Positions 4,826 to 10,835 of a stretch of 44,907 nucleotides of DNA are shown here, piece after piece. Both the position numbers and the translations under genes were made by a program. The stretch spans positions 1-44,907 of the forward strand of contig JAIENA010000065.1 in assembly GCA_019751755.1 (NCBI GenBank), in the 5' to 3' direction. This DNA comes from Burkholderiaceae bacterium. GTDB taxonomy: Bacteria; Pseudomonadota; Gammaproteobacteria; Burkholderiales; Burkholderiaceae_D. Within the stretch, counting starts at the first letter, position 1, and every line of letters starts with the position of its first letter. Below the pieces are notes generated by a model, which had not been told where the DNA came from, ran no database searches, and saw nothing but the letters and a program-made list of their open reading frames with translations.

Positions 4826-6103
4826 TCAGCTGCGCCGACGTATCAATTTCACGACTTTGATCGACTGGTTCTGCACTTGCACCACTTCGATCACGCATCC
4901 ACCGGTTTTGACGCAGATGGGCGATTCCGGGATATCTTGCAAGTATTCCAACAGCATCCCATTCAAGGTTTTCGGCCCATCCAGAGAAAAGTTTAATCCC
5001 AAGCGCTTGTTAATGTCACGCAGCGCAACGGAACCTTCCAGCAGGCAGTCGCCCTGGGCGCTCCAGGCAAACGAATCGGCCCGCGCGGCACCCGGGGTCG
5101 AGGTGGTGAATTCGCCAATCATTTCTTCAATGATGTCGTCCAGCGTGACCAGCCCCTGCACTTCGCCATATTCATCGACGATGATGCCAAGGCGTTCCTT
5201 GTTTTCCTGGAAGTATTGCAATTGTGTCAGCACGCCAGTGTCCTGCGGGATGAAATACGGTTCCGTCAGCAGCGCGCGGAAGTGCTCGGCCGTCAGTTCG
5301 TCTTCCTGCGTCAGCAGCGCCATCGCCTTGCGCACATGCAAGATGCCGGCGATCCGGTTGATTTCGCCCTCATAGACGGGCAGCTTGTTGTGGTAGCAGG
5401 TGGTCAGCTGGCGCTTGATTTCCGCCACTGGCGCGGCCAGGTTCAGCGCTTCGATCTGCGCCCGCGGCGTCATGATGTCTTCCACCGAGATGGCTTCAAG
5501 GTCGAACAGGTTGAGCAGGATGCTGCGGTGCTTTTGCGGCATGGCGTTGCCACCATCTAACACCAGCGTGCGCAATTCATCGGGTGACAGCCGGGCATCG
5601 TGCAGCGGCGTGCCCATCCGGATGCCGAACACCCGCAAGACCGTGCTGGTGAACAGGTTGACGAACCACAGCAGCGGGCGGGCCGCCGACAGCAGCGGCC
5701 GCAGCAGCATGGCGGTGGGCAGTGCGATCTGTTCGGCATAGGTGGCGCCGATCATCTTGGGCGAGATTTCCGCAAACACCACCAGCAGGAACGTCATGGC
5801 GGCGGTGGACGCCACCACCAGCCATTCGTCATAGCCGAAGTTATGGATGACGAGGGCTGTCACCAGGGCAATCGCGGTGGCATTGATCAGCGTATTGGCG
5901 ATCAAGACCAGTGACAGCAGTTTATTGGTGCGCTCAAGCAGCCACAGGGTGGCGAGGGCGCGCCGGCTGCCGCGCTTGGCCTTGTGGCGCAGGCGGTGCC
6001 GGTTGGCGGCCATCAGGGCGGTTTCCGCCATGGCGAAAAACGCGGAACACAGAATCAGGAAAGCAAGCGCAGTCAGTTGCGCCCATAGGGGTACGGTATC
6101 CAA
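4826..6103 (-). CDS. HlyC/CorC family membrane protein (DUF21-CBS-CorC_HlyC)
   Basis: Inner-membrane protein of the CNNM/CorC type, linked in other bacteria to Mg2+/Co2+ efflux. The N-terminal ~190 residues form a DUF21 domain with 3-4 hydrophobic segments and the signature FFAMAETALMAANRHRLR. A CBS pair follows (contains EDIMTPRAQIEALN and the acidic NKERLGIIVDEYGEVQGLVT). A C-terminal CorC_HlyC domain ends the protein. The start is uncertain: a TTG at 6103 gives 425 residues beginning near (M)DTVPLWAQ, which resembles relatives; a TTG at 6157 would add 18 residues without better support. The substrate cannot be told from sequence. Confidence 0.85.
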   Translation of the reverse strand: MDTVPLWAQLTALAFLILCSAFFAMAETALMAANRHRLRHKAKRGSRRALATLWLLERTNKLLSLVLIANTLINATAIALVTALVIHNFGYDEWLVVASTAAMTFLLVVFAEISPKMIGATYAEQIALPTAMLLRPLLSAARPLLWFVNLFTSTVLRVFGIRMGTPLHDARLSPDELRTLVLDGGNAMPQKHRSILLNLFDLEAISVEDIMTPRAQIEALNLAAPVAEIKRQLTTCYHNKLPVYEGEINRIAGILHVRKAMALLTQEDELTAEHFRALLTEPYFIPQDTGVLTQLQYFQENKERLGIIVDEYGEVQGLVTLDDIIEEMIGEFTTSTPGAARADSFAWSAQGDCLLEGSVALRDINKRLGLNFSLDGPKTLNGMLLEYLQDIPESPICVKTGGCVIEVVQVQNQSIKVVKLIRRRS

Positions 6104-6754: not shown

Positions 6755-7108
6755 TCAACTGCCGCGATAGGTCGAATACGCCCACGGCGACACCACCAGC
6801 GGCACGTGGTAATTCTGGCTGGCGTCGGCAATGCCGAACGCGATCGTCACTTGGTCGATAAAGCGCGGCTCCGGCACCTTGGCGCCCTGGGCTGCAAAGT
6901 AATCGCCGGCATCGAACACCAGTTCGAATTTGCCGGTTTTCATGGACGCCCCCTCCAGCAGTGGCGTGTTGCAACGGCCATCGGCGTTGGTCACATCGTT
7001 TTTGACCAGCACGCGGCCTTCCGGCAGGATTTCATACAAGGCGAGGTTGACACCGGCGCCGGGTTTGCCCGCCGTGGTATCCAATACGTGGGTGCTGAGT
7101 TTGCCCAT
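6755..7108 (-). CDS. uraH: 5-hydroxyisourate hydrolase (transthyretin-like)
   Basis: UraH hydrolyses 5-hydroxyisourate, the product of urate oxidation, to OHCU, the step before allantoin. The 117-residue protein begins MGKLSTHVLDTTAGKPG, the family's N-terminal motif with its active-site His, and ends with the diagnostic YSTYRGS. It has no signal peptide, so it acts in the cytoplasm. It diverges from puuE, with 118 bp between the two starts. Neither the OHCU decarboxylase (uraD) nor a urate oxidase is in the window. Confidence 0.96.
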   Translation of the reverse strand: MGKLSTHVLDTTAGKPGAGVNLALYEILPEGRVLVKNDVTNADGRCNTPLLEGASMKTGKFELVFDAGDYFAAQGAKVPEPRFIDQVTIAFGIADASQNYHVPLVVSPWAYSTYRGS

Positions 7109-7226: not shown

Positions 7227-8183
7227 ATGAGCACCTACGATAACTACCCACGCGACATGATCGGCTACGGCCGCACGCCGCCCCACCCGCAATGGCCGAA
7301 CGGCGCCCGCGTGGCGTTGCAATTCGTGCTCAATTACGAGGAAGGCGCGGAAAACAACGTGCTGCATGGCGACCCGGCCTCGGAAACCTTCCTGTCCGAA
7401 ATTATCGGCGCCCAGGCATTCCCGACCCGCCACCTGTCGATGGAAACCATTTATGAATATGGTTCCCGTGCCGGCCTGTGGCGCTTGATCCGCATGTTTG
7501 AAGAGCGCAAGCTGCCGCTGACGATCTTTGGCGTGTCGATGGCGCTCAAGCGCAACCCGGAAGCGGTGGCGGCCTTTATGGAACTGGGCCACGAAATCGC
7601 TTGCCACGGCTTGCGCTGGATTTCCTACCAAAATGCCGATGAAGCCACCGAACGCGCGCACATGAAGGAAGCGGTGGAGATCATCAAGGAATTGACGGGA
7701 TCCGCACCGCAGGGCTGGTACACCGGCCGCGATTCCCCTCATACCCACCGGCTGGTGATGGAACACGGCGGCTTCCGCTATGACGCCGACCACTATGGCG
7801 ATGATTTGCCGTTCTGGATGCAGATTGAGCACAAGGATGCCGACAGCGGTCTGACCGTGGTGAAACCGCAACTGATCGTGCCCTACACGCTGGACACCAA
7901 CGACATGCGCTTTGCCGCCATGCAAGGCTTTAATTCCGGCACGCAATTCTTTGATTACCTGAAAGATGCCTTCGACACCTTGTACGCGGAAGGCGATCCG
8001 GAAGGCTTGAATGCGCCGAAGATGCTGTCGATCGGCTTGCACTGCCGTCTGGTCGGCCGTCCGGCCCGCGCCGCCGCGCTGGCGCGCTTCCTCGACTACG
8101 TGCAAAGCCATGACAAGGTCTGGGTCACGCGCCGCATCGACATCGCGGAACACTGGCATCAACACCATCCGTTTGTAAAATAA
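7227..8183 (+). CDS. puuE: Allantoinase PuuE (polysaccharide-deacetylase fold)
   Basis: PuuE opens the hydantoin ring of allantoin to give allantoate. It belongs to the NodB-like deacetylase superfamily rather than to the metal amidohydrolase allantoinases. The 318-residue length is typical. Family stretches visible are YPRDMIGYGRTPPHPQWP at the N-terminus, LNYEEGAENN near residue 35, GHEIACHGLRWISYQ near residue 125, GWYTGRDSPHTHRLV near residue 170 and a C-terminal LHCRLVGRPAR. There is no signal peptide. It is divergent from uraH and precedes the xdh remnant by 118 bp. Confidence 0.94.
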   Translation: MSTYDNYPRDMIGYGRTPPHPQWPNGARVALQFVLNYEEGAENNVLHGDPASETFLSEIIGAQAFPTRHLSMETIYEYGSRAGLWRLIRMFEERKLPLTIFGVSMALKRNPEAVAAFMELGHEIACHGLRWISYQNADEATERAHMKEAVEIIKELTGSAPQGWYTGRDSPHTHRLVMEHGGFRYDADHYGDDLPFWMQIEHKDADSGLTVVKPQLIVPYTLDTNDMRFAAMQGFNSGTQFFDYLKDAFDTLYAEGDPEGLNAPKMLSIGLHCRLVGRPARAAALARFLDYVQSHDKVWVTRRIDIAEHWHQHHPFVK

Positions 8184-8213: not shown

Positions 8214-8238
8214 ATGGCTGATGTGCGACATCAGCCAT
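8214..8238. promoter_or_regulatory. 25-bp dyad downstream of puuE / upstream of xdhA remnant
   Basis: Perfect 11-bp arms ATGGCTGATGT and ACATCAGCCAT flank GCG. There is no T run after the second arm, so this is as likely an operator for the following xdh promoter as a terminator for puuE. The inner part (GATGT..CGACATC) resembles the dyad between uraH and puuE. Confidence 0.5.
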
Positions 8239-8301
8239 TTCATATAAGGGTCGTGGCAGGGAACTGATAGTCTTGTAGGTACTCAGGGGAGCGAGGCTGC
8301 G

Positions 8302-8410
8302 ATGTCAGAACCGATTCGTTTCCCTGCGCCGCTCAATGCACCGGCGGCTTCCGAATCCATTTTTGAAGGCCATTGCCGCTGTCACAAGCGCAGTGCGATA
8401 CCATGACTGA
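8302..8410 (+). pseudogene. xdhA-xdhB deletion scar (xanthine dehydrogenase subunits lost)
   Basis: An ATG at 8302 with a GGGGAGCGAGG ribosome binding region begins MSEPIRF, the usual start of the XdhA small subunit. From codon 8 it continues PAPLNAPAASESI, which looks like the C-terminal tail of the XdhB large subunit. A run of five T (8360-8364) then shifts the frame, giving a stop at 8404-8406. With one T fewer the frame would continue LKAIAAVTSAVRYHD and stop at 8408-8410, overlapping the xdhC start, as expected for an intact xdhB-xdhC junction. The simplest reading is a fused remnant of xdhA and xdhB after loss of several kb, plus a +1 frameshift. An assembly gap cannot be excluded. Family assignments are from memory of the conserved ends. 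Confidence 0.72.
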
Positions 8411-9464
8411 CTGGCTCACTGACCCTGCGGCGCCCGCCGTGTTGATCACCGTTGCGAAAGTGGAGGGCTCCGGCCCGCGCGAAACCGGTGCCAAGATGCT
8501 CATCACCGCCGACGCTGAATGTGACACCATCGGCGGCGGCCACCTGGAAATGCGCGCCATCGATATCGCGCGCGACATGGTGCGCCAGCACAGTGGTCCG
8601 GCCGTCCGCTATGAACGCTTTGCGTTGGGGCCCAGCCTGGGACAGTGCTGCGGCGGCGTGGTGTATCTGCTGTTTGAGAAAATCGATGCGCGCCTGGCGC
8701 CCGTCATGGACCAGTTGCGCAAGCGCCTGCGCGAAGACAGCTGGCGCCTGACGGCACTCGATGGCCCGGCCGCTTGCGCGCTGTTTGATGCGCAAGGCCA
8801 GCCGCTGACCGTGTCTGAATTCGGCGCGCCCAAGTTCGATAGCAAGCAGGCCGCCCATTTGATGACCGATGACGCGGGCCGCCGCTGGCTGGTCGATCCG
8901 GTACTGGCGCCGCGCGCGCACCTGACCCTGTTTGGCGCCGGCCATGTCGGCGCCGCCATCGTGCGCGCACTGGCGCACTTGCCGTGCACCGTCACCTGGG
9001 TCGATGAGCGCGAAGACATGTTCCCGGACGCGGCCGAGATTCCGGCCAATGTCGTGGTGGAAGCATCGGAGGTACCGGAAATGTGCGTGGCCGATGCGCC
9101 GGCCCATGCCAGCTACCTGGTGATGACGCACAACCACGCGCTGGACCAGCGCCTGACGGAAACCATCATGCGCCGCGACGATGTCTACTGGTTCGGCCTG
9201 ATCGGCTCGAAAACCAAACGCATGCAGTTTGAACACCGCCTGCAAGCCAAAGGCTTTGATCAGGGCCGGATCGATGCGATGGTGTGCCCGATCGGCATTG
9301 CCGGCATCACCAATAAAGCGCCGGCCGTGATTGCCGCCTCGGTCGTGGCGCAATTGCTGGGCGTGTGGGAGCAGCAGGAAATGGAACGCCTGCCGCGCAA
9401 GCTGTCGCAAACCATGACGATGTTGCGCGCGGCCGGTGATGGTGGATTACGCGCTGCGCGCTAA
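8403..9464 (+). CDS. xdhC: Xanthine dehydrogenase accessory protein XdhC
   Basis: XdhC binds molybdenum cofactor, promotes its sulfuration and hands it to xanthine dehydrogenase. The start chosen is the ATG at 8403 (MTDWLTDPAAPAVLITVAKV), which overlaps the remnant xdhB end; an in-frame ATG 30 bp upstream is less likely. The 353-residue protein has an N-terminal XdhC/CoxI domain with GSGPRETGAKM and GGGHLEMRA and a cysteine pair in LGQCCGG. A C-terminal Rossmann domain begins LTLFGAGHVGAAIVRAL. The gene looks intact, although its two client genes appear deleted just upstream. Confidence 0.93.
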   Translation: MTDWLTDPAAPAVLITVAKVEGSGPRETGAKMLITADAECDTIGGGHLEMRAIDIARDMVRQHSGPAVRYERFALGPSLGQCCGGVVYLLFEKIDARLAPVMDQLRKRLREDSWRLTALDGPAACALFDAQGQPLTVSEFGAPKFDSKQAAHLMTDDAGRRWLVDPVLAPRAHLTLFGAGHVGAAIVRALAHLPCTVTWVDEREDMFPDAAEIPANVVVEASEVPEMCVADAPAHASYLVMTHNHALDQRLTETIMRRDDVYWFGLIGSKTKRMQFEHRLQAKGFDQGRIDAMVCPIGIAGITNKAPAVIAASVVAQLLGVWEQQEMERLPRKLSQTMTMLRAAGDGGLRAAR

Positions 9465-9512: not shown

Positions 9513-10835
9513 ATGCCAGCGACCACCCAAGCCTTCCGCGCCAGCCTGCTGCACTTCAGCGCCGACCCGGCCTTCGCCCAAGATGCCCACCACTGGCACG
9601 CAGACGGCCTGCTGATCATCGACAACGGCAAAGTGACAGCGGCCGGTGACTACGCCACCCTGCACGCGACCCTGCCACCCGGGACAACCGTCACCGACTA
9701 TCGCGGCAAACTGATCACCCCCGGCTTTATCGACACCCACGTCCACTACCCGCAAACCGACATGATCGCCTCGCCCGCCCCGGGTTTGCTGCCATGGCTC
9801 GATCAATTCACATTCCCCACCGAACGCCGCTTCGACGACCCGGCCCATGCCGCGGCCACGGCGACCTTCTTCCTTGATGAACTGCTGCGCAACGGCACCA
9901 CCACGGCACTGGTGTACTGCACTGTGCACCCGCAATCGGTCGACGCGTTTTTCGACGCCAGCAGCCGGCGCGGCGTGCGCATGGTGGCCGGCAAAGTCTT
10001 GATGGACCGCCATTGCCCGGACTTTTTGCGCGATAGCGCCGAGTCAGGCGGGCGTGACAGCGAAGACTTGATTCGCCGCTGGCACGGCAAGGAGCGCCAG
10101 TTGTATGCCCTGACACCGCGCTTTGCGCCCACCTCCACCGAGGCCCAGTTGCAGGTGACGGGCGAACTGGCGCGCGCCTATCCCGACGTGTATATCCAGT
10201 CCCACGTCGCGGAAAACCAGGACGAGTGTCGCTGGGCGATGGATCTGTTCCCCGGCGCGCGCAGCTATCTCGACGTGTACGACCGTTACGGCTTGCTGCG
10301 TCCGCGCGCCGTCTATGGCCACTGCATCTGGCTTGATCAACACGATCGGGCGCGCATGGCGGCCACTGGCGCCGCCGCCGCCGTGTGCCCGACCTCGAAC
10401 CTGTTTCTCGGCAGCGGCCTGTTTGATTTTCGCGCCGCCGACCACGCCGGCATGCTGCTGTCGCTGGCAACCGACGTCGGCGCCGGCACCTCGTTCTCGC
10501 TGTTGCAAACGATGAATGAAGCCTATAAAGTAGCGCGCTTACAGGGCAGCTACCTGCCGGCCCTGCGCATGTTTTACCTTGCCACCCTGGGGGCGGCCCG
10601 CAGCCTGCAACTGCAAGGCACGATCGGCCATTTCGCCGCCGGCGTGGAAGCGGACTTTATCGTGCTCGACCCCAAGGCGACGCCGTTGCTGGCGCGCCGC
10701 ACCGCCCATTGCAACAGCCTGGAGGAATTGCTGTTCGCGCTGGCGCTGCTGGGCGACGACCGGGCGGTGGCCGCGAGCTATGCGCAGGGGCGATTGGTGC
10801 ATGAGCGCGTGTCGGAGGCTGCCCCTGAACCATAA
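9513..10835 (+). CDS. guaD: Guanine deaminase
   Basis: Zinc amidohydrolase that converts guanine to xanthine and ammonia in the cytoplasm. The 440 residues match the family. Visible motifs are the metal-binding GFIDTHVHYPQTD near residue 75, the substrate loop LPWLDQFTFPTERRF near residue 95, TPRFAPTSTEAQL near residue 205, QSHVAEN near residue 230, YGHCIWLD near residue 270 and SLATDVGAGTSFS near residue 325. An AGAGGAG ribosome binding site precedes the ATG. The product xanthine would normally feed xanthine dehydrogenase, whose genes are missing at this locus. Confidence 0.96.
   Translation: MPATTQAFRASLLHFSADPAFAQDAHHWHADGLLIIDNGKVTAAGDYATLHATLPPGTTVTDYRGKLITPGFIDTHVHYPQTDMIASPAPGLLPWLDQFTFPTERRFDDPAHAAATATFFLDELLRNGTTTALVYCTVHPQSVDAFFDASSRRGVRMVAGKVLMDRHCPDFLRDSAESGGRDSEDLIRRWHGKERQLYALTPRFAPTSTEAQLQVTGELARAYPDVYIQSHVAENQDECRWAMDLFPGARSYLDVYDRYGLLRPRAVYGHCIWLDQHDRARMAATGAAAAVCPTSNLFLGSGLFDFRAADHAGMLLSLATDVGAGTSFSLLQTMNEAYKVARLQGSYLPALRMFYLATLGAARSLQLQGTIGHFAAGVEADFIVLDPKATPLLARRTAHCNSLEELLFALALLGDDRAVAASYAQGRLVHERVSEAAPEP

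Follow-up and report, generated by a model that had tools for sequence, protein, structure and literature searches.

An intact xdhC beside a deletion scar of xdhAB, and its probable service to a second XdhAB encoded elsewhere in the genome

We have found that xdhA and xdhB are deleted from between puuE and xdhC in the genome analysed here, and that xdhC, which encodes their molybdenum-cofactor insertion chaperone, is intact beside the scar. The genome holds another xdhAB pair (type II, the deleted pair being type I) on a separate contig, and xdhC has most likely been retained because XdhAB type II has no xdhC of its own. Overall, we consider it quite probable, judging from sequence comparisons, that redundancy allowed type I xdhAB to go and that XdhC would still be needed in trans by the remote XdhAB type II. 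In this report the window is the whole stretch of 44,907 nucleotides, its genome is G000 in our genome set, and the sisters are G017 and G067. The nearest named relatives of the window are Pseudoduganella, which supports an earlier note, made from the letters alone, in its view of an Oxalobacteraceae-type genome; we take the family to be Oxalobacteraceae.

The scar between puuE and xdhC

The features around the scar are given in Table 1, where uraH, puuE, xdhC and guaD have been called by curated NCBIfam cut-offs. The syntenic site of G017 reads uraH-puuE-xdhA-xdhB-xdhC-guaD in the same order, and the G067 locus is likewise intact. These two loci, which we match to Pseudoduganella ginsengisoli KCTC 42409 (G017) and P. 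rivuli FT92W (G067), share the gene order of the window and 89–91% DNA identity with it in puuE and xdhC, but xdhAB is intact in them and deleted in the window.

Table 1 Features of the window around the xdhAB scar.
Feature	Position	Strand	Basis or remark
uraH, hydroxyisourate hydrolase	6755..7108	-	TIGR02962 above cut-off
puuE, allantoinase	7227..8183	+	TIGR03212 above cut-off; likewise upstream of xdhA in sister locus
Perfect 11-bp inverted repeat ATGGCTGATGT/ACATCAGCCAT, 3-base loop, in old xdhA leader	8214..8238		read by eye
Kept xdhA leader with TGATAGTCT and strong ribosome-binding stretch before ATG 8302	8265..8301	+	sister comparison
xdhA remnant, start codon and first 20 bases	8302..8321	+	alignment to G017, G067
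Scar ORF, 34 codons from xdhA ATG; TGA overlaps xdhC ATG	8302..8406	+	translation
Deletion junction, 5 bases belonging clearly to neither side	8322..8326	+	alignment to G017, G067
xdhB 3' end remnant and single base preceding xdhC; frameshifted, stop TAA to TAC	8327..8402	+	sister alignment
xdhC, molybdenum-cofactor insertion chaperone, 353 aa, intact	8403..9464	+	TIGR02964
guaD, guanine deaminase, first copy	9513..10835	+	NF006679, TIGR02967 above cut-off

In the window, puuE and xdhC are 219 bases apart, and the last 101 of these are the start of xdhA followed directly by the end of xdhB. In the alignment, the xdhA remnant is identical to the G017 xdhA start, the xdhB remnant matches the G017 xdhB end, and both pieces match the G067 locus as well. 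When window positions 8230–8480 are searched by blastn against 41 genomes, G017 gives two matches ~3.7 kb apart, one to 8230–8321 (87%, E 1.7e-25) and the other to 8327–8480 (93%, E 3.3e-59). The xdhA and xdhC ATGs are 101 nt apart in the window, versus 3,810 in G017 and 3,789 in G067. The net loss of ~3.7 kb starts at xdhA codon 7 and leaves roughly the last 25 codons of xdhB in place. An xdhABC operon has intact xdhA and xdhB next to xdhC; here 20 and ~75 bases of them remain, both ends still lie in order at the syntenic site, and G000 has no intact type I xdhAB elsewhere. The comparison confirms, at the level of sequence, that the scar is real and appears to come from one clean deletion. 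The earlier note had read xdhA and xdhB as collapsed to a ~100-bp scar, and this is borne out by the alignment and blastn to the syntenic intact locus.

Since G000 is a draft of 520 contigs, we have weighed whether an intact xdhAB exists and its ends were misjoined in assembly. This is very improbable: type I xdhA and xdhB have been found nowhere else in the assembly (the one XdhA above cut-off lies on contig C493 and is type II), the remnant bears substitutions of its own and is without the xdhB stop, the ends carry no repeat to mislead an assembler, and a similar scar exists in an unrelated assembly, itself a MAG. Exact matches near the two ends (within 60 nt) are at most 7 nt long in each of the sisters, a length reached by 93 and 109 of 200 shuffles (for the two sisters), so that a deletion between repeats was rejected. 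We have also rejected a scar common to another genome of the genus, as none among the 74 genomes compared has the same one.

The window has five T at 8360–8364 where both sisters have four, and this extra T, already noticed in the earlier note, frameshifts the xdhB remnant. With one T omitted, the scar frame would indeed reach a TGA at 8408–8410, overlapping xdhC as had been claimed; however, it does so only because the sisters' xdhB TAA is TAC in G000, and that TGA is not the ancestral stop. Both the five-T run and the lost stop are further decay.

Read as it stands, the scar ORF stops at a TGA and overlaps the start of xdhC by 4 nt (ATGA). The overlap had been thought to be as in intact loci, and we can no longer accept it as evidence for the scar, because it is present in only 5 of 27 intact type I loci and in neither sister. 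In these 27 loci, with starts chosen by script, the spacing from xdhB stop to xdhC start ranges from -4 to +185. It is +1 in both sisters, so the overlap in the window was not inherited from the intact neighbour. The strong evidence for the scar, as we read these loci, is the sister alignment and not the overlap. The longer xdhB-xdhC gaps of L119, L096 and L108 (89, 115 and 185 nt) have repeat-like stretches just upstream of xdhC.

The second XdhAB and the two xdhAB lineages

Model searches of G000 itself have found an intact, adjacent xdhA-xdhB pair on C493, and these are its only matches above the NCBIfam cut-offs (TIGR02963 and TIGR02965). When the sister XdhB is searched in G000, the best match, at 74%, is this type II copy. 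The same contig encodes an allantoate amidohydrolase and a second guanine deaminase (each above cut-off), together with a Urate_ox_N protein (urate oxidase), a Xan_ur_permease protein (purine permease) and a second uraH-like frame of 72% identity; C501 encodes another Urate_ox_N protein. Of the route from guanine to allantoate, the steps that were looked for, a set that leaves the uraD decarboxylase step outside, thus have genes. The check for a second xdhAB suggested in the earlier note has thus turned up an intact pair. The same note had suggested that guanine, if the scar is real, would stop at xanthine with no local enzyme to take it further. A complete loss of xanthine oxidation fits the window locus, which is without xdhAB, but we give it almost no credence because the same genome has an intact second XdhAB together with urate oxidase and allantoate amidohydrolase, and a broken purine pathway is rejected. 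The C493 cluster (L113 2906–19001, L039 3717–7560) has a Lyase_aromatic gene as well.

No xdhC was found on C493, neither in the stretches 6000–32000 nor in the XdhC search. The window xdhC is the sole close XdhC in G000, and the other XdhC-family matches, on C467 and C340, are only 30% and 28% identical.

We have compared the loci of 25 genomes of the same genus (G000 to G024), annotated with reference proteins. Type II xdhAB is present in 12 of them, and in an XdhB tree of 118 sequences, some entered twice under two locus ids, these 12 form one clade of exactly these leaves (support 0.994). Five of the 12 have an adjoining xdhC (G004, G005, G012, G014, G019). The seven without (G000, G002, G006, G009, G016, G017, G022) make up a subclade with support 1.0. 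Three of the 25 genomes, namely G000, G005 and G019, lack type I xdhAB. In G005 and G019 the entire type I xdhABC is absent, so that puuE adjoins guaD, and their type II has its own xdhC; we read this absence, from the gene order, as a probable loss. In G000, only type I xdhAB is gone, xdhC is kept, and type II is without xdhC. That type I xdhC is absent where type II has one and kept where it has none counts for a need in trans, a rule of complementarity drawn from three genomes and one MAG. The puuE-guaD junctions of G005 and G019 (L112 8619–8650, L116 1509–1646) are short and different from each other.

The same relation can be followed over the genus, where a close XdhC and an XdhB above cut-off are present in 74 of 74 genomes. 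Genes were taken as paired within 1,500 nt on one strand (E 1e-40 for xdhC, 1e-200 for xdhB), by which a remoter xdhC escapes. A single xdhB paired with xdhC is seen in 47 genomes, two such pairs in six, and in 20 a pair is accompanied by one or two further xdhB that have no xdhC next to them (one of the 20, G084, is interrupted by contig ends). G000 is the sole genome with no pair, its single xdhB and single xdhC being at separate places. The surroundings of the unpaired xdhB were read fully in seven of the 21 genomes concerned and judged by coordinates in the rest. An xdhC away from any xdhB occurs among the 74 genomes only in G000 and as a contig-edge fragment in G084.

The state of xdhC and its likely role

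The window XdhC scores 308.4 bits against TIGR02964 (cut-off 161.6) and covers model positions 1–246 of 246, with the query lacking its first residue. It retains 98 of 99 near-invariant columns, and the sole exception is common to both sisters. Cys82, Cys83, Cys195 and Cys295 are invariant in all 113 rows of the XdhC alignment, which includes some genomes twice. The conserved XdhC cysteine in R. capsulatus is Cys82, as given in a 2010 review (PMC2997495), and the window protein has Cys82 and Cys83 in our alignment, outside which the R. capsulatus protein itself lies. The earlier statement that xdhC is undamaged holds on these grounds.

Between G000 and G017, the dN/dS values are 0.070 for xdhC, 0.035 for puuE, 0.083 for uraH, 0.168 for guaD and 0.105 for the permease, and in type II they are 0.035 for xdhA and 0.039 for xdhB. 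That xdhC is somewhat above puuE and type II xdhAB speaks against our explanation. On the G000 branch, with G016 as outgroup, xdhC has 16 silent substitutions and one changing. Where G017 and G067 agree, the codon changes found only in G000 are 33 silent and 6 changing in xdhC, versus 1 silent and 4 changing, including the lost stop, in the xdhB remnant (Fisher p 0.007, for a remnant of only five such codons, counted with one base of the T run omitted to keep the register). This difference counts for a need for xdhC. An attempt to date the deletion by the xdhC dN/dS was dropped, as it concerns a single branch.

The earlier note had further suggested a recent loss. We do not regard this as established: the scar is in no other member of the 74-genome set, and the deletion therefore probably postdates the divergence of G000 from the sisters, but by now the xdhB remnant is without its stop, is frameshifted and differs mostly by amino-acid changes. 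For the undamaged xdhC, continued need is a better explanation than short time, though lack of time is a possible reason too.

On the other hand, a recent deletion could have left xdhC as an idle, decaying relic, with XdhAB type II depending on a distant XdhC-family protein or on no such protein at all. The matches on C467 and C340, which might serve type II, and the confinement of the scar to G000 would agree with this, and the good state of xdhC may partly predate the deletion. Still, the near-complete set of near-invariant columns and all four invariant cysteines are kept beside a remnant that has decayed, if over few codons, and the other 20 genomes with unpaired xdhB each have a close xdhC at another xdhB. 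We consider the relic unlikely.

Based on the above analyses, our preferred explanation, a need for XdhC in trans, can be put as follows. The ancestor would have had two XdhAB, type I in a puuE-xdhABC-guaD operon and type II in a purine cluster without xdhC. If type II is active in the other six members of the subclade without a type II xdhC, both of their enzymes would already be served by the type I xdhC. Type I xdhAB would then be dispensable and xdhC indispensable. The single deletion of ~3.7 kb seen in the comparison removed type I xdhA and xdhB, leaving the leader, the start codon, the 34-codon ORF and xdhC. Thereafter XdhAB type II would continue xanthine oxidation, as its intact genes suggest, and the type I XdhC would load sulfurated molybdenum cofactor into it in trans. 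Less firmly, xdhC would probably be translated by coupling to the scar ORF.

XdhC of R. capsulatus is described in the review as binding the molybdenum cofactor, having it sulfurated and then inserting it into XdhB (PMC2997495). The R. capsulatus xdhABC resembles the intact relatives of the window in that the split-subunit genes xdhA and xdhB are followed by the gene of an XdhC-family chaperone, and differs from the window, where xdhA and xdhB are deleted, xdhC stands alone and the remaining XdhAB is on another contig. The same text describes E. coli YqeB as an XdhC-family protein encoded outside its enzyme's operon and proposed as possibly serving several enzymes (PMC2997495). The window xdhC is likewise apart from any molybdoenzyme gene; unlike YqeB, as presented there, it scores as a TIGR02964 XdhC and was separated by a traceable deletion. 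The review treated as speculative the question of whether XdhC-type chaperones are dedicated to their operon partner or serve several enzymes (PMC2997495). G000 is a natural test case for such sharing: it has a single close XdhC and a single XdhAB, which are encoded at separate loci and belong to different lineages. It also indicates that an apparent pathway lesion in one window can prove harmless at the whole-genome level. Our literature search, mostly at title and abstract level and with subscription literature largely outside it, found no published account of this locus.

A parallel scar in Janthinobacterium and the kept xdhA leader

The similar scar mentioned above is in L133, from a Janthinobacterium MAG, the only one among 80 named loci where xdhB is absent within 400 nt of xdhC (these are the best 80 of 94 matches to the window XdhC, many from the same genomes as the genus set). 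L133 has uraH, puuE, xdhC and guaD in order, with xdhAB gone; in its stretch 5934–5996 the start codon of xdhA survives with a few bases at 5934, and the end of a 20-codon ORF overlaps the start of xdhC at 5989 (frames read by eye). Its XdhC scores 302 bits against TIGR02964. The only XdhB of the MAG above cut-off is on another contig beside xdhA, and the 14.6 kb that were read there contain no xdhC. By similarity this XdhB is equally close to type I (77%) and type II (76%), and its clade in the tree takes in the 12 type II sequences and six others (19 leaves, support 0.884). As the junction and the genus differ, the Janthinobacterium and window events look independent, and a second scar with an intact xdhC counts for our explanation as a parallel case.

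In both the window and L133, the xdhA leader and start codon are kept, and the short ORF (34 and 20 codons, respectively) ends over the xdhC start. The duplex with the anti-SD is -8.3 kcal/mol at 8302 versus -2.4 at xdhC 8403. The weak duplex before xdhC proves little, since that of puuE is weak too (-3.0). It is plausible from this arrangement that the scar ORF acts as a leader ORF coupling translation to xdhC. A wider generalisation is tentative and in our view rather doubtful: that XdhC is shared by the two XDH lineages, and that xdhABC has repeatedly been turned into leader-ORF-xdhC, with the old promoter and coupling serving a remote enzyme.

The motif TGATAGTCT in the leader also occurs in G017, G067 and G062 and is promoter-like by reading only. 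The arms of the inverted repeat upstream of it are unchanged in the G017 and G067 leaders, according to the alignment, and the repeat could be a puuE terminator or an operator. A related CTGAT...ATCAG motif is seen in some more distant leaders.
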